Virus record (IMG/VR): IMGVR_UViG_3300033571_018869 | Location: 1-23,325 of that record | DNA from: a virus | Strand: one strand, 5' to 3' | DNA length: 23,325 nucleotides | Shown: one piece after another, positions 15,948 through 23,116 of the stretch | Numbering within the stretch: the stretch's first letter is position 1 | Layout of the letters: every line of letters begins with the position of its first letter | Notes under the pieces: generated by a model | What the model was told of the DNA's origin: nothing | What the model saw: the letters and a program-made list of their open reading frames with translations, nothing else | Database searches by the model: none | Translations under genes and position numbers: made by a program

Positions 15948-16607
15948 ATGGCCCCAAAAATTAGAACTTTATCGGAAATTAAATCTAAACTTTTGCGGCC
16001 TGCTACAACCAGCCATTTTGAATGCGTATTTACTCCACCAGGAGATGTAAAAAAATTCATTGAAGGCCGTAAACTTAATATAACACCAATTACCGAAGAA
16101 AAAATAAACATAAGTTGCTGTGATGCTTCTCTTCCAGGATCAACATTACAAACTGCCACTTTAACTGATTCTTATACTGGCGTCACTGAAAATTATGCAT
16201 ATAGAAGATCATATGATAACCGTGCAGACTTTTCTTTTTATGTAGATAATTCTGGAGCGGGAGCGGGAGATTACTATTCAGTTATTTTATTTTTTGAAAA
16301 TTGGATTTCTTATATCGTCGGGGAAGATAGTTTAAATGATCAAAGTACAACTAATTATTTCTACCGGGTTAATTTTCCTGAAAATTACATAGCAAAGGCT
16401 TTAACCATTTATAAATTTGAGAAAGATTATAACACAAGCCGAAAATATTTAAAATATGACTTTATTGGTGCGTTTCCTCTTTCAATTGCATCAACCCCAG
16501 TTTCTTATGAGTCTTCTCAATTGTTAAAATATACGGTATCTTTTTCTTATTTGAGATATGTTTTATCTACTGAGACTGGCCCACTTCAACCTACTTCTAG
16601 ACCATAA
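15948..16607 (+). CDS. Tail-tube-fold protein (gp19/gp54-like)
   Basis: 219 residues. The T4 tail-tube fold pattern is present: an entry strand 'TSHFECVFTPPGD', 'ISCCDASLPGSTLQTATLTD', 'YAYRRSYDNRADFSFYVDNS', the helix 'YYSVILFFENWISYIVGEDS' and the closing strands 'YDFIGAFPLSIASTPVSYES' and 'LLKYTVSFSYLRYVLS'. The T4 members are gp19 (163 residues, the tube itself) and gp54 (320 residues, tube initiator). Length and position beside 48 and 26 make gp54 as plausible as gp19, so no symbol is given. A late promoter-like box lies 24 bases upstream; no Shine-Dalgarno sequence is seen. Confidence 0.8.
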   Translation: MAPKIRTLSEIKSKLLRPATTSHFECVFTPPGDVKKFIEGRKLNITPITEEKINISCCDASLPGSTLQTATLTDSYTGVTENYAYRRSYDNRADFSFYVDNSGAGAGDYYSVILFFENWISYIVGEDSLNDQSTTNYFYRVNFPENYIAKALTIYKFEKDYNTSRKYLKYDFIGAFPLSIASTPVSYESSQLLKYTVSFSYLRYVLSTETGPLQPTSRP

Positions 16608-16659: not shown

Positions 16660-17382
16660 ATGCCTCTTCCCGTTATTAATGCCCCTGAATATTTTCTTGA
16701 ACTTCCATCGAATGGAAAAAAAGTAAAGTATCGCCCGTTTGTTGTAAAAGAAGAAAAAGTTCTTCTTCTTGCTCTTGAATCTGAAGATGTTTCAGAAATG
16801 TCTAACGCGGTTAAAAATGTACTTTCTAGTTGTGTAAAAGGTGAAAATTTAGATATTGAAACTTTACCAACTTTTGATATTGAATATCTCTTTCTTAATA
16901 TTCGCGGTAAAGCCGTAGGCGAAGAAATTGAATTACAACTTCTTTGTCCAGATGATGGCGAAACATATGTAAAAACAAAGATCTTTATTGATGAAATTAA
17001 CATCAAAAAAGATCCAACCCACACAAACAAAATAAAGATTAATGATACACTAATGATGGAAATGAAATATCCATCTCTAGAGCAATTTATTAAGTCCAAC
17101 TTTAGTTTTGACGACAGAAAAAATCAGTTAGAACAATCTATTGAACTGATTGCTTCTTGCGTGGATACAATTTACAGTGAAGAAGAAGTTTGGACATCTG
17201 CTGATGTTACACTCAAAGAAATTGTGGATTTTATAGAAAATTTCAATTCAACCCAATTTGGTGAGATTGAAAAGTTCTTTGAAACTATGCCCAAGTTAGA
17301 GCATAAGATCAAGATTAAAAATCCAGAAACTAAAGTTGAAAGTGAAATTACTTTGGCAGGGTTATCAGATTTTTTCGGTTGA
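16660..17382 (+). CDS. 26: Baseplate hub subunit gp26
   Basis: 240 residues, against 208 in T4; T4_baseplate (gp26) family. The family's N-terminal signature is clear: 'MPLPVINAPEYFLELPSNGK' then 'VKYRPFVVKEEKVLLLALES', 'NVLSSCV', 'FDIEYLFLNIRGKAVGE' and 'LLCPDDGE', with the C-terminal helical part 'ASCVDTIYSEEEVWTSADVT' and 'FIENFNSTQFGEIEKFFETM'. In T4, gp26 is needed for hub assembly and is structurally placed like a tape-measure chaperone. The gene ends 'LSDFFG' on a T-TTT-TTC heptamer followed by a hairpin, the signal for a possible -1 frameshift into gp51. Without shifting, it stops at 17380-17382. Confidence 0.9.
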   Translation: MPLPVINAPEYFLELPSNGKKVKYRPFVVKEEKVLLLALESEDVSEMSNAVKNVLSSCVKGENLDIETLPTFDIEYLFLNIRGKAVGEEIELQLLCPDDGETYVKTKIFIDEINIKKDPTHTNKIKINDTLMMEMKYPSLEQFIKSNFSFDDRKNQLEQSIELIASCVDTIYSEEEVWTSADVTLKEIVDFIENFNSTQFGEIEKFFETMPKLEHKIKIKNPETKVESEITLAGLSDFFG

Positions 17383-17403
17383 GTTTAAGTCATATTGACT
17401 TAA
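17370..17403 (+). promoter_or_regulatory. Candidate -1 ribosomal frameshift signal gp26/gp51
   Basis: The heptamer T TTT TTC (17370-17376) is in the gp26 reading frame as X-XXY-YYZ, two codons before the stop. Eight bases later a hairpin forms: TTAAGTCA (17385-17392), loop TAT, TGACTTAA (17396-17403), 8 bp. A -1 shift would read CGG TTG AGT and enter the gp51 frame with no stop, giving a gp26-gp51 fusion of about 300 residues. Architecture seen in sequence; use is inferred. Confidence 0.6.
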
Positions 17404-17561
17404 TGAATTATTATAAAATTAATTTTAGCCTGGCCCAATTTCACAAATGGTCAATAGCCGAAATAGAAAATTTTATGCCTTTTGAACGCGAACTTTATGT
17501 AATAATGTTGAATCAACATATTGAAGAGGAAGAACAAAAACAAAAATCCTTATCACAATAA
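17379..17561 (+). CDS. 51: gp51-like baseplate hub assembly protein, 60 aa or less
   Basis: The core 'YYKINFSLAQFHKWSIAEIE', 'NFMPFERELYVIMLNQHIEE' matches the short C-terminal domain of T4 gp51 ('...I..MIPWER..Y...L...I.EE'); T4 gp51 is 249 residues, while marine T4-like phages carry this short form. T4 gp51 is a catalyst of hub assembly. Two starts are possible: TTG 17379, overlapping the gp26 stop, or ATG 17403 at the end of a hairpin (52 residues). No ribosome site is seen for either, which favours coupling or frameshifting from gp26. The gp26-gp51-tape-measure-like order mirrors the G-GT-tape measure order of siphophages. Confidence 0.75.
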   Translation: MSLSHIDLMNYYKINFSLAQFHKWSIAEIENFMPFERELYVIMLNQHIEEEEQKQKSLSQ

Positions 17562-20240
17562 ATGTCAGTTAAAAGCAAATTAGAATCACTAAGAAAAATA
17601 CTAGGGCCGGAGAATTTTTTTCTGGCCGAGGCTTTTATTGATAAGAATTTAAAACCATTAAAGATAAGAAAAAATTCTAATCTTTACGCTGCGGCTGTTG
17701 AATATGTTGGTACTTTATTTGAACAAGAAACTCAAATATTAACTGATAGAGAAGTTGAAACTTTAACCAAAGATAATTTAAAAAATAAAGTTGGTGTAGT
17801 ACACAAAAAATTAAAAAAAGAGTTCGATGATTTATTAAAATTAAACGAATTAATAGAAGGCGAGAAAAAAAATACTAGAACTCAAGCGGCTAGACCTCTA
17901 CCCGATCCAATCCCAGTCGCCGCAGCAAAAAAAAAACCACCAGAAGTAACTCTTGAAACAAATAAAAAAAGAGTTCAAAAAGGTGATTCCGCGACAGTAA
18001 CATGGAACTCTAAAAATGCAGTACGAATAGCCCGAACAAATATTCCAGGGGTAACTACAAGATCTTCTTTAAGTGGTTCAATAGAAGTAGAAGATATAAG
18101 AAGACGGAGAGATCTTTATATTGTTGTTGAATCTTTAACCGGACAAAAAGCAGAAGCAAAGACACAAATTCTGGTTGAAACTCAGCAATATCAAAGAAAG
18201 AGAGAAAGGGGAGTAATTGAAGATGATGAAGTTAGCCCCCCACCACCTCCACCAAGACCATCATTAACAACTCTAGTTAGTCCTTCTACCCGAGCGCAAC
18301 CACAAACTAGAACAAGACCGGGACCAACCGCAGAGTCTTCTAATATAAACAATAATATACTATTAAATATCAATAAGTCTCTTACAAATATAGCCAAGGT
18401 TCTTTCTTCACAGTTAAAACTGGGTCAACGAGTTTTTGATATGGATCGAAGATCCAATGAGTCGGCCACTCGCCTTAAGAAAGAGCAAGAAATGGAGGAG
18501 AAGGATAGTGGTATCCCAGGTGGAGCATTGATGAAAGCCGGTGCAGAGAAAATGCTCTCTCCATTTAAAACTATTATTGATAAAATTATTAACTTTATTG
18601 TTTACACATTTTTAGGTAGGGCCTTTACTGAAATTATTAAATGGGTAAATGATCCAAAAAATTCAGAAAAAGTTGATGCCTTAGGTAAATTCTTAAAAAT
18701 GGCCTGGCCGGCTATTCTGGGTCTTTCTTTGTTATTTTTGACTCCTTTGGGCGGGTTTATTTTAGGTACTGTTCAATTTTTAATTGGGACAGCTAAAACA
18801 TTAAGATCCTTAAAACTTCTTATTGATAAACTTATATTTAAGAAGGGTGCTAAACCTCCCACTACGGGATCACCAAAAAGTCCGGTAGGGGGTAGACCAA
18901 AGGTAACTGTTAGTGGAGAAACTCAGAGTAAAGTTCCATTCAGGAGAGGTCCTAAAATAACAGGTGACGTACAATCAAAAGGCTTTAAACTTCCTAAAGT
19001 TTCTCCTGGTGCTGTAATCCGAGGTATAACAAACGCAGGGATAGGACTTGCGGGTTCATTTGCTATTGATGCGTTGGGGGAGGCAATTCAGGGCGGGGCG
19101 TCCCAGAATATTGTTTCTCGTCTTCAGCAATTATCACCAGAGCAAAGAGAAGAAAAAATAAATCAATATAAACAAATAATTAAAACCGAAGAGGAGTATC
19201 AGAAATCCCCATTATTTTTAATTGATAAAATAAAAAATTTAGGTGGTGAAACAGAAAGCGAAAGAATTACAAGATTTTTTAAAAACATCCTAAAGAAATC
19301 AGATTCTTATTCTACCGGAGGACAAATTTTTTCTGGGTTAGTAACGGAAAAAGATGGGGTAAAAGTATCTGGCGCCGGGAAAGATACTCAAGCATTCCCG
19401 GTCATGGGTGGAGGGACTGCTGTTCTTCAGCCAGGAGAAGTTGTACTCAATAAGGCCGGTGTAAAAAATGCACTTTCCTTAGGAATAGATCCACTAAAGC
19501 TAAACACCGGACCTAATGCTAATAAACCGGTTAATATAACAACCGGAATAAAAGCAATGAAATCAGGTGGGGTTGTTGGGGGTATGCGCAACATGCCTTC
19601 AATGGCCGGCACTAGAAAAATGCCCTCAATGAATATTAATTCAATTAATAATATTACTAATAGATCAACTAATTTAAATATTAGTAATAATATGTCCATG
19701 AGACAGCCAACGCGGATGACGAGTAATATATCCAATATGTCTATGAGACAGCCAACGCGGATGAGAAGTAACATGCCTAATATGTCTATGAAATCACCAA
19801 TGTCGATTTCTAGTAGAAGTTTCCCTTCTATGGGCAGTTCATATAAGGCTCCTAGGTCTATGTCAATGGGGTCAATGAGTAAACCTTTTATTCCTCAAAT
19901 GAGGAGATATGAAAGTTCTGGTAAGTTCATAAGAAAAATAGACCAGACTTCATATAGTAAGCCTTATGATAGTTTAGCCAGATCTACTTCTACTGTTTAT
20001 CAGAGCCCCAATCAATTTCAAATATTAAGAGCTTCTCCTACACTTAATGCCCCGGAGCCTCTTTCCAGGGCAAGAAGAAAGGAGCCAATCATGTTGCCTC
20101 CAATTACAATGGGACAGGATACGATTGGCTCATCGGCAGGGCCTGGAACGCAGCTTCCAGTATTTGGGGCCACTTGCCCTAGTTCAAGTGCGGCATCCTC
20201 TAGAAAAATCTTGTGTGATATTTACGGGATAATTGTCTAA
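17562..20240 (+). CDS. Large tape-measure-like tail protein with Ig-like domain, 892 aa
   Basis: N-terminal charged coiled coil (about 1-110). An Ig-like beta-sandwich is at about 126-207 ('PEVTLETNKKRVQKGDSATV', 'TWNSKNAVRI', 'SGSIEVEDI'). A Pro-rich hinge (226-260) follows, then helices with 'FIVYTFLGRAFTEIIKWVND' (about 345-364) and a long hydrophobic segment 'WPAILGLSLLFLTPLGGFIL' (381-412), a probable membrane-inserting region. The C-terminal part has 'GGTAVLQPGEVVLNKAGVKN', a motif of phage tape-measure and hub proteins, then a Met/Ser/Arg/Asn-rich tail with 15-residue repeats. It is probably a gp29-like tape measure or ejected hub protein; T4 gp29 has 590 residues. It directly follows gp26/gp51, as tape measures follow their chaperones. 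No ribosome site; coupled by TAAATG. Confidence 0.7.
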   Translation: MSVKSKLESLRKILGPENFFLAEAFIDKNLKPLKIRKNSNLYAAAVEYVGTLFEQETQILTDREVETLTKDNLKNKVGVVHKKLKKEFDDLLKLNELIEGEKKNTRTQAARPLPDPIPVAAAKKKPPEVTLETNKKRVQKGDSATVTWNSKNAVRIARTNIPGVTTRSSLSGSIEVEDIRRRRDLYIVVESLTGQKAEAKTQILVETQQYQRKRERGVIEDDEVSPPPPPPRPSLTTLVSPSTRAQPQTRTRPGPTAESSNINNNILLNINKSLTNIAKVLSSQLKLGQRVFDMDRRSNESATRLKKEQEMEEKDSGIPGGALMKAGAEKMLSPFKTIIDKIINFIVYTFLGRAFTEIIKWVNDPKNSEKVDALGKFLKMAWPAILGLSLLFLTPLGGFILGTVQFLIGTAKTLRSLKLLIDKLIFKKGAKPPTTGSPKSPVGGRPKVTVSGETQSKVPFRRGPKITGDVQSKGFKLPKVSPGAVIRGITNAGIGLAGSFAIDALGEAIQGGASQNIVSRLQQLSPEQREEKINQYKQIIKTEEEYQKSPLFLIDKIKNLGGETESERITRFFKNILKKSDSYSTGGQIFSGLVTEKDGVKVSGAGKDTQAFPVMGGGTAVLQPGEVVLNKAGVKNALSLGIDPLKLNTGPNANKPVNITTGIKAMKSGGVVGGMRNMPSMAGTRKMPSMNINSINNITNRSTNLNISNNMSMRQPTRMTSNISNMSMRQPTRMRSNMPNMSMKSPMSISSRSFPSMGSSYKAPRSMSMGSMSKPFIPQMRRYESSGKFIRKIDQTSYSKPYDSLARSTSTVYQSPNQFQILRASPTLNAPEPLSRARRKEPIMLPPITMGQDTIGSSAGPGTQLPVFGATCPSSSAASSRKILCDIYGIIV
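19692..19826 (+). repeat. 45-bp in-frame tandem repeat, about 3 copies
   Basis: The 28-base core beginning ATGTC(C/T)ATGAGACAGCC occurs at 19692 and 19737 with one difference. A degenerate third copy begins at 19782. The period is 45 bases (15 codons): MSMRQPTRMTSNISN, MSMRQPTRMRSNMPN, MSMKSPMSISSRSFP. It lies in the low-complexity C-terminal region of the 892-residue tail protein. Confidence 0.85.
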
Positions 20241-23116
20241 TGGACCCATCTAAATTTTTTAACCGAAAGGTAAACATTAGAAATTCCAAGACTCCTTATA
20301 GTAAAGGGAAGTTTGTTGATGAATCGGCAAATTATTCTAATAGAATATCAACTAGAATAAACCAAAGCCCTCTAACCAAATCTCTATTTTCATTTAGGAA
20401 TAAAATATTCCAAATTGAAAATTTATTAACGGGTATCCTTAATTTAAATAAAAAAACCGAAGAACAAAAGAAAAAAATAAAGCCAACTGATACTGTAAAA
20501 AGAAAACCAAAAATAGAAGGGCCTAAAATTTTCGGTAATATTATAAACCTACCTCCAACTAATGCCTTAGATTTAATCAGGGATTTTGTAACCTTTACAT
20601 TTTTGGGGTGGCTTTTTACTCGACTACAACCTATAATGGGAGAGTTAACAAAAATACTCCCGTTAATAGAGGGGTTAATTGGCTTTGTTAGTGGAACTCT
20701 CAAAAATATGATTGATATATTTGCTACCTTTTTAAAGGTCAGTTTTGATGCTATAGATAAGTTTAATGAAATATCTTCAAGTATAAAGAAAAATGTTACT
20801 GGTGTAAATAAACAATTTGATGAAACTTTATCACTATTAAAGGGTGTATTTGGTGGAACCATTGAATTAGTAAATTCCTTTTTGGGGGTTTCAGTAGATA
20901 AAGATGAGTTGGATCGAGCCAAAACTGAGTTACCAAAAGATAAACCAGTTGATAATATCCCTCAAATGCCACCTCTACCTAAAGTAGATGATGCCCCGAA
21001 ACCTCCTGTACAAAAATTACAACCAACCCCTTCTTTATCAACATCAACAAATGTACAAGGAGTTTATACTGGGGGAGTCATTCGTGGGTTTAATGCTGGG
21101 GGTAATTTAAATCAAGAACGAATTGATCCACGGTCACCCGTAACTCGCGGAATTACTCCCCAGAAAAAAGAACCCCTAAAACAAAAACCAATTATAAGTC
21201 AGCAAAAAACAACGCCAGGTAAAGACGTAGGTGGTTTTAAACGGGTTAAAGAATTATATGATTCAAAGGGTGCTGGTCTTCTTGATTTTGTTCCATTAGT
21301 TTCCTTTTTTAGCCCTGATAAGAAGAGTGGTTTTGATGCTCTAGTGAGGACATCTGAGGAATATAAAAAACCAACGATGAATGACATTTTAGGTGTTGGT
21401 AATTTGATGGGCGCATCTGTTGATTCTGCATTGGGTCAGAAGATAGAAAAGAAATCTTATGCTCAATTTGCAGCCGGTATTAAGTATTTGGTCGATTACG
21501 GTAGAACTCAACCGGAAGAGTTTGCAAAAATTGATCTTGAAGATATGGTAAGGAAGATTGTCGAGCCAAAAGTAAATATGGCAATCAACCGAATTCAGGA
21601 AGAAATTAATAAAAAGTCTGCGGTCGAGGTTACTCCTGGCCCCGGCGAAGGAGGTGGTGGAGGTGGTCTTGACTTTGGTGGGGATGTTGGAGATTATGCT
21701 GATTTGATTGCATTAATAGTTGCTGAAGAAAGTGCTGGTCATGGCGGCTATGAAGCATTTAATACTGGTGGTTATGGTAGTGCGCCTAGTGGATCCGCAA
21801 ACTCCATTAACACTCCAGTTGGTGGAATTTTAAGACCTCTAACACAAAGGACAGTTAAAGATATTATGAATATGCATAATAGACGGCAAATACATGCTAC
21901 AGGAAGATATCAAATAATTGCAACTACTTTACGTGGATTAATTAGTGGTGCATATGGTCAAACTGGTGTAAATGAAAATGATTTATATGACGCTGCAACA
22001 CAAGATAAACTCGCTATTGCATTAATAAAAAATAGACTAAAAAATTCTACTCTTCAAAATTTTAGAGATGAATGGACTGGATTAAAAAAGGTTCCTGATA
22101 ATGTTTTGAAGGCTGCTATAGAAAAGGCAAAAATTGGTAGGTTATACAATGTAAGTGATATTCTTTCTAGTAATTTAAAAGGCCTAGTATTACATTCTGG
22201 GCCAGGCGGCCTCATTCAAGGTGGATCTGGAAGTAAGGGAGAATCTGATTATGCGGTCCACTTCCATCTTGACACTAAAACCCCAAATCCAACTAAAGAA
22301 GAATTAGCAAATGTAAGAGAAGTTGCGTTTAAGGCCGTGAAAATCATGCTTGCTAGGGGCTCTAAAGTATATTTTGGTAATCTAAAGGATTATGCGTCTA
22401 ACGATGACAATACACTTAGGAGGCAGATTGCAGAAGATCAGAGAAGACACGCTCAACGAAGCACTCCAGGTGTTGATATTCAAGAAATAAATCCCAATGT
22501 GGGACCAACTATTAAAGGGCTACCTGGTTCTAGAATCGCTTTTCCATTTGCAGTTGGTCGTGTTTATAGAAAGGGTGGTTATGGTAGGGAATCCGAAATT
22601 ATAGGTTCTGGGGGCGTGGTAGTCTCACATGGAGCAGCTGGTTCATCCGCGAGTATCGTACAGCGATCACAACAACCTCCCGGACCCACTCAACAGACTA
22701 AACCTCCAACACACCAACAACTTAACAACCGCATGGGCCTTAATATCCCAGAAGGGGAACCTTATATGATTAAAGGTAAAACGTATTATGTTGATTTTAA
22801 AGATAATAAAATACGAACCCTAGATGAAAAGGGGAATATAGTAGAAATACAAGTAGGAAGAGGAAAAAACGAATGGATATTAAAAGAAATTAGAGAAATA
22901 CAAAAAATAAGAAAAAATCAAAAAATTTCTTTTTCTAAAATTTCACCAACTTTACCCGACCAAAAATATGCGTCATATGAACAATTAGGATCTCAGGAAG
23001 GTGAAATAGCATTTCAACCATTAATATATCCCAAACCAATTCCAGTTCCTGTTTCATCTGATGTTGTTGCATATCCCATTCCGTCAATAAGTAATACTGA
23101 TATAAAATTAACCTAA
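20240..23116 (+). CDS. Large tape-measure-like tail protein with muramidase-like domain, 958 aa
   Basis: N-terminal basic region, then 'LIRDFVTFTFLGWLFTRLQP' (about 112-131) and hydrophobic helices to about 175, echoing the preceding protein. A Pro-rich linker and 'YTGGVIRGFNAGGN' follow (about 275-290). A Gly-rich hinge (about 471-482) leads to a muramidase/transglycosylase-like domain at about 485-640: candidate catalytic Glu496/Glu497 in 'IALIVAEESAGHGGYEAFNT', and 'HATGRYQIIATTLRG' (553-567), close to the 'AAGRYQ' motif of lambda-lysozyme-type enzymes. A further unnamed domain (about 660-830) contains 'HFHLDTKTPNP', 'VYFGNLKDYAS' and 'VGRVYRKGGYGRESEIIGSG'. It would open peptidoglycan during injection, a job done by gp5 in T4. 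Start ATG overlaps the previous stop. Confidence 0.75.
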   Translation: MDPSKFFNRKVNIRNSKTPYSKGKFVDESANYSNRISTRINQSPLTKSLFSFRNKIFQIENLLTGILNLNKKTEEQKKKIKPTDTVKRKPKIEGPKIFGNIINLPPTNALDLIRDFVTFTFLGWLFTRLQPIMGELTKILPLIEGLIGFVSGTLKNMIDIFATFLKVSFDAIDKFNEISSSIKKNVTGVNKQFDETLSLLKGVFGGTIELVNSFLGVSVDKDELDRAKTELPKDKPVDNIPQMPPLPKVDDAPKPPVQKLQPTPSLSTSTNVQGVYTGGVIRGFNAGGNLNQERIDPRSPVTRGITPQKKEPLKQKPIISQQKTTPGKDVGGFKRVKELYDSKGAGLLDFVPLVSFFSPDKKSGFDALVRTSEEYKKPTMNDILGVGNLMGASVDSALGQKIEKKSYAQFAAGIKYLVDYGRTQPEEFAKIDLEDMVRKIVEPKVNMAINRIQEEINKKSAVEVTPGPGEGGGGGGLDFGGDVGDYADLIALIVAEESAGHGGYEAFNTGGYGSAPSGSANSINTPVGGILRPLTQRTVKDIMNMHNRRQIHATGRYQIIATTLRGLISGAYGQTGVNENDLYDAATQDKLAIALIKNRLKNSTLQNFRDEWTGLKKVPDNVLKAAIEKAKIGRLYNVSDILSSNLKGLVLHSGPGGLIQGGSGSKGESDYAVHFHLDTKTPNPTKEELANVREVAFKAVKIMLARGSKVYFGNLKDYASNDDNTLRRQIAEDQRRHAQRSTPGVDIQEINPNVGPTIKGLPGSRIAFPFAVGRVYRKGGYGRESEIIGSGGVVVSHGAAGSSASIVQRSQQPPGPTQQTKPPTHQQLNNRMGLNIPEGEPYMIKGKTYYVDFKDNKIRTLDEKGNIVEIQVGRGKNEWILKEIREIQKIRKNQKISFSKISPTLPDQKYASYEQLGSQEGEIAFQPLIYPKPIPVPVSSDVVAYPIPSISNTDIKLT

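Follow-up and report, generated by a model that had tools for sequence, protein, structure and literature searches.

The 3' end of gp26 in this phage raises a question of expression, namely whether the short gp51 reading frame that overlaps it is translated as a separate gene or is appended to gp26 by ribosomes that change frame. The window, by which we mean the whole stretch of 23,325 nucleotides analysed, is a 23.3-kb IMG/VR virus fragment (IMGVR_UViG_3300033571_018869) for which no near DNA matches were found in phage records. Its gp26 gene (16660..17382, + strand) encodes a 240-aa protein matching PF12322 T4_baseplate at 3.6e-69 (233 bits against a gathering cut-off of 24.5) and phrog_150 at 4.2e-71, and this protein shares 77.5% identity with its counterpart in Synechococcus phage B23. 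The source is a T4-like (Kyanoviridae-type), uncultivated, cyanophage-like phage. Directly 5' of gp26 lies a gene for a tail-tube-fold protein (15948..16607, + strand; Pfam Phage_TTP_2, 5.6e-13; phrog_45 tail tube, 3e-27), and two long open reading frames lie on its 3' side. The first (17562..20240, + strand, 892 aa) gave no match in a Pfam search; it contains a single hydrophobic stretch together with the motif PGEVVLNKAGV and is a candidate tape measure or tail-interior protein. The second (20240..23116, + strand, 958 aa) has weak phrog_90 and phrog_1200 endolysin matches (4e-5 to 1e-4) over residues ~488-627, a putative lysis-enzyme-like segment; S-SM2 carries a transglycosylase-domain protein at the equivalent position. 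Large tape-measure-like genes had been expected immediately after gp51. Frames of that size do follow, at 17562 and 20240, but neither has a family match to a tape measure.

The last codons of gp26 read GAT TTT TTC GGT TGA and contain the heptamer T_TTT_TTC (17370..17376, + strand) in the zero-frame phase X_XXY_YYZ. An 8-nt spacer (17377..17384, + strand) holding the gp26 stop codon (TGA, 17380-17382) separates the heptamer from a hairpin, TTAAGTCA-TAT-TGACTTAA (17385..17403, + strand), which is predicted as the minimum free energy structure (-6.3 kcal/mol), with the 8-bp stem formed by 17385-17392 and 17396-17403 around the loop TAT. Beginning 34 nt 5' of the gp26 stop, the -1 frame stays open through to 17558; it reads CGG TTG AGT TTA AGT CAT ATT GAC TTA ATG after the heptamer. 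The original prediction, which described a slippery heptamer in correct phase, an 8-base spacer and an 8-bp hairpin at the gp26 stop, was therefore borne out on base-by-base reading. We consider it very probable, at roughly 0.93, that a programmed -1 ribosomal frameshift at this site yields both a short chaperone and a 300-aa gp26-gp51 long form, a reading that is drawn from comparative sequence evidence. The window by itself carries little of this weight. It is AT-rich and contains 36 copies of TTTTTTC where 26 are expected, so that heptamer frequency was discarded as uninformative. The hairpin stands 8 nt from the heptamer, where a stimulatory structure would be expected at about 5-9 nt; its folding energy is not significant on its own (z -1.34, with 16 of 200 shuffles equally good) and was likewise set aside. 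Since heptamer and hairpin in the window alone are no better than chance, relatives were gathered as a test.

Relatives were selected by gp26 protein similarity only, irrespective of any slip site, from the 80 viral contigs nearest the window, contigs found with more distant queries, and annotated phages; a scan of the viral contigs with Vibrio K362 gp26 as the query returned no matches. The end of gp26 could be read in 305 loci, of which 232 are distinct, and 228 of these 232 have an in-phase TTTTTTN heptamer no more than 45 nt from the gp26 stop. The four without it belong to two Tevenvirinae-type and two Ackermannviridae-type phages. The heptamer mostly stands one codon before the stop, in some loci directly at the stop, and in 14 at a distance of 24 nt. 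In one group (L254, L269, L284, L292 and L296) the stop lies 24 nt past the heptamer, compared with 0-6 nt elsewhere, and the short form is therefore eight residues longer. In 230 of 230 decidable loci the -1 frame continues without a stop codon for 120 nt or more beyond the gp26 stop, whereas the +1 frame does so in two. The gp51 frame had been described as exactly -1 and open through the site; this holds throughout the decidable relatives, none of which places gp51 in another relative frame.

Within a non-redundant set of 77 loci (<80% nucleotide identity), the six T's of the heptamer are invariant despite the availability of synonymous codons, so that the second pattern named in advance as counter-evidence, synonymous breakage of the heptamer, is also absent. 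The first phenylalanine codon is TTT in all 77 against a background of 70% TTT, and the codon before it ends in T in all 77. This preceding codon differs among loci (AGT, GAT, TCT, AAT and others), and therefore the amino acid varies while the T is constant. Naive log10 probabilities, which ignore relatedness among the 77 loci, are about -12 for TTT and about -16 for the preceding T. Position seven of the heptamer is free to be C, T, A or G (second codon TTC, TTT, TTA or TTG), as X_XXY_YYZ permits. An invariant homopolymer of six to seven T's might also be expected if RNA polymerase stuttered on the run and produced mixed mRNAs encoding both forms. We regard such transcriptional slippage as extremely unlikely, because runs on which polymerases slip are usually longer than this one, all four bases occur directly behind it in exactly the manner allowed by X_XXY_YYZ, and a structure lies at a spacing typical of ribosomal shifting.

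Evidence that the -1 frame encodes protein comes from the region 3' of the gp26 stop, where pN/pS among the relatives is 0.44 for the -1 frame, compared with values of 1.28 and 1.25 for the remaining two frames. Protein-type variation in this frame begins close behind the slip site across the 77 loci, and the consensus FFRIxLSHxxLExYYKxNFALMQHHKYSLTEIENMMPWERE is recognisable in the -1 product nearly throughout the relatives. By these measures of sequence variation, selection acts on the protein encoded in the -1 frame. Read from the slip site, the extension in the window (17376..17561, + strand) matches phrog_634 at 1.2e-24 and would form the TAC-NC-like gp51 domain of the 300-aa fusion.

Separate translation of gp51 must be weighed against these results. 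Stop-start coupling or reinitiation could in principle begin at TTG 17379, which overlaps the gp26 TGA, or at ATG 17403, with the T run being a product of AT-rich coding. An ATG is present in the -1 frame of the window and of 41 of the 77 loci, and in nt-1, XG4 and Vibrio K362 it overlaps the gp26 stop as TAATG. Its position is not conserved, though, and neither ATG nor GTG occurs among the first 14 codons of the -1 frame in 35 of the 77 loci, so some loci lack a start codon. Protein-level conservation (FFRIxLSH) is already evident 5' of any start, and separate translation leaves unexplained both the in-phase invariance of NNT_TTT_TTN and the in-frame fusion of T4-type phages described below. 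The short gp51 had been said to lack a ribosome site and to begin at the foot of the stem, and both statements are correct: the ATG overlaps the last stem base, and no Shine-Dalgarno-like sequence was detected 5' of it in the window. Among the 77 loci, a Shine-Dalgarno-like 4-mer precedes a possible gp51 start in seven. Independent initiation as the explanation of this locus is thus very unlikely, and the product read from the first ATG (17403..17561, + strand) is probably not the main one. Three GenBank records, those of S-CAM1, S-H9-1 and Aeh1, leave gp51 unannotated while the -1 frame is intact (positions 2712-2896 of locus L094, 2712-2890 of L095 and 3715-3884 of L088); the missing annotation is consistent with the absence of a good start codon in these phages.

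The downstream hairpin is less uniform than the heptamer. Mean folding energy in 40-nt windows over the 77 loci reaches its minimum of -7.4 at 0-5 nt past the heptamer, the background being -3.9 (sd of means 0.7). Stems at a level reached by <1% of shuffles occur in 10-19% of the distinct sequences. Stem registers differ among relatives, and a hairpin is missing in some of them, for example L247, L134 and L170. Base-pair covariation over all relatives was examined and rejected as evidence: three registers were found, each with a few two-sided changes and none common to all. Because no register is shared and that of the window is one base off that of many relatives, covariation is not claimed. 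From these comparisons the hairpin is read as an auxiliary, common stimulator rather than a defining part of the site. The description of the site as a textbook one accordingly stands for the heptamer and its phase and must be relaxed for the hairpin.

Most Ackermannviridae examined retain the -1 frame with NTT_TTC or NTT_TTT at the site instead of T6. At these loci (L092, L314-L317, L319, L089 and L321-L339) ATT, GTT or CTT is followed by TTC or TTT, the -1 frame is open, and a gp51-like domain with MPWH or a similar motif is present. We tentatively suggest, as a possibility that we hold at less than even odds, that the route to the long form has changed repeatedly, so that cyanophage-like phages and several other groups use the canonical T_TTT_TTN, most Ackermannviridae have a degraded site, NTT_TTY, and the relatives of T4 carry a separate fused gene. 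If this were true, Ackermannviridae would shift with A-site re-pairing only or would express the extension in another way.

Comparison with T4-type gp51 links the extension to a known protein. Residues 1-201 of this 250-aa protein match the PF12322 gp26 family at 4.6e-59, the 40 residues at its C-terminus correspond to the -1 extension of the window, and an hhalign comparison with the conceptual gp26-gp51 fusion gave an E value of 7e-15 with an alignment that spans the junction. Judged by these alignments, T4-type gp51 naturally joins a gp26-like domain and the same C-terminal extension in one reading frame; T4 relatives therefore encode separately what frameshifting would make here. The two domains are the same in both systems, but in T4 and other Tevenvirinae gp26 and gp51 are two separate, opposite-strand genes without the heptamer, whereas in the window phage they overlap, with gp51 in the -1 frame relative to gp26. 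The frameshift layout provides for a short form and a C-terminally extended long form with a common N-terminal domain, and T4-type gp51 is the same fusion in a single reading frame.

The same arrangement is found in the lambda gpG/gpGT pair, with which the window shares a short form and a -1-frameshifted long form as well as a locus lying 3' of a tail-tube gene and 5' of a very long open reading frame. The slippery sequences differ, that of lambda being G_GGA_AAG and that of the window T_TTT_TTC. The AlphaFold2 model of gp26 (pLDDT 86) has HK97 tail assembly chaperone 2ob9 as its top two matches in a PDB structure search, at E values of 0.33-0.39 that are not significant. Against predicted viral structures, the model matched gp26-like proteins of other phages, and a PDB sequence search with a gp26 profile gave no significant match. 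The suggestion that gp26/gp51 is the T4-like counterpart of the lambda-type tail-assembly chaperones draws support from the gene layout and from the in-frame fusion seen in T4-type gp51. By analogy, gp26 (TAC-N-like) and the gp26-gp51 fusion would be the short and long members of such a pair.

The sequence, its phase and its conservation are established directly, as are the protein-coding character of the -1 frame and the homology between the fusion and T4-type gp51; we infer slipping, its efficiency and the chaperone role. Under the proposed frameshift, the majority of ribosomes would stop at TGA 17380 and release gp26, the short chaperone form. In a minority, tRNA-Phe paired with TTT and TTC would slip one base back onto TTT TTT, probably aided by the downstream hairpin in many members, and these ribosomes, now reading the -1 frame, would bypass the stop and append the gp51 domain. 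If lambda gpG/gpGT is a guide, the tape-measure protein would be coated by the short form, tail-tube or hub subunits would be recruited through the additional domain found only in the long form, and the ratio of short to long form would be set by slip efficiency.

Frameshifting of this kind has a precedent among T4-like phages. The abstract of a 2022 study by Vladimirov, Gautam and Davidson reportedly names genes 26 and 51. According to the accounts in PMC10885494 and PMC12846349, that study (Vladimirov, Gautam & Davidson 2022, Virology 566:9) describes poly-T slippery signals in the TAC-N genes of T4-like phages, and short and long forms encoded as two genes in some of them. Within what these accounts convey, we found no mechanistic difference between those gp26/gp51 chaperones and the window, which represents an uncultivated cyanophage-like member. 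The present result, with published frameshifting from 2022 described in those accounts, is therefore an independent confirmation with wide sampling and not a new system. At the TAC locus of the Vandenendeviridae phage Adele (PMC12846349), a -1 shift was likewise deduced because the -1 frame is open in every case and a T-rich motif does not vary, the motif there being GTTTTT as opposed to T_TTT_TTC in the window.

At the level of sequence, these comparisons support annotating gp51 in cyanophages, and in many other T4-like phages, as an extension that frameshifting adds to gp26, in place of the current alternatives, in which it appears as a separate gene of 45-60 aa or is omitted, as in several GenBank records. 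T4 gp51, the long-puzzling 'hub assembly catalyst', could then be understood simply as the long member of a chaperone pair, and such a reading would open the gp26/gp51 ratio, and what it does to tails, to direct testing.
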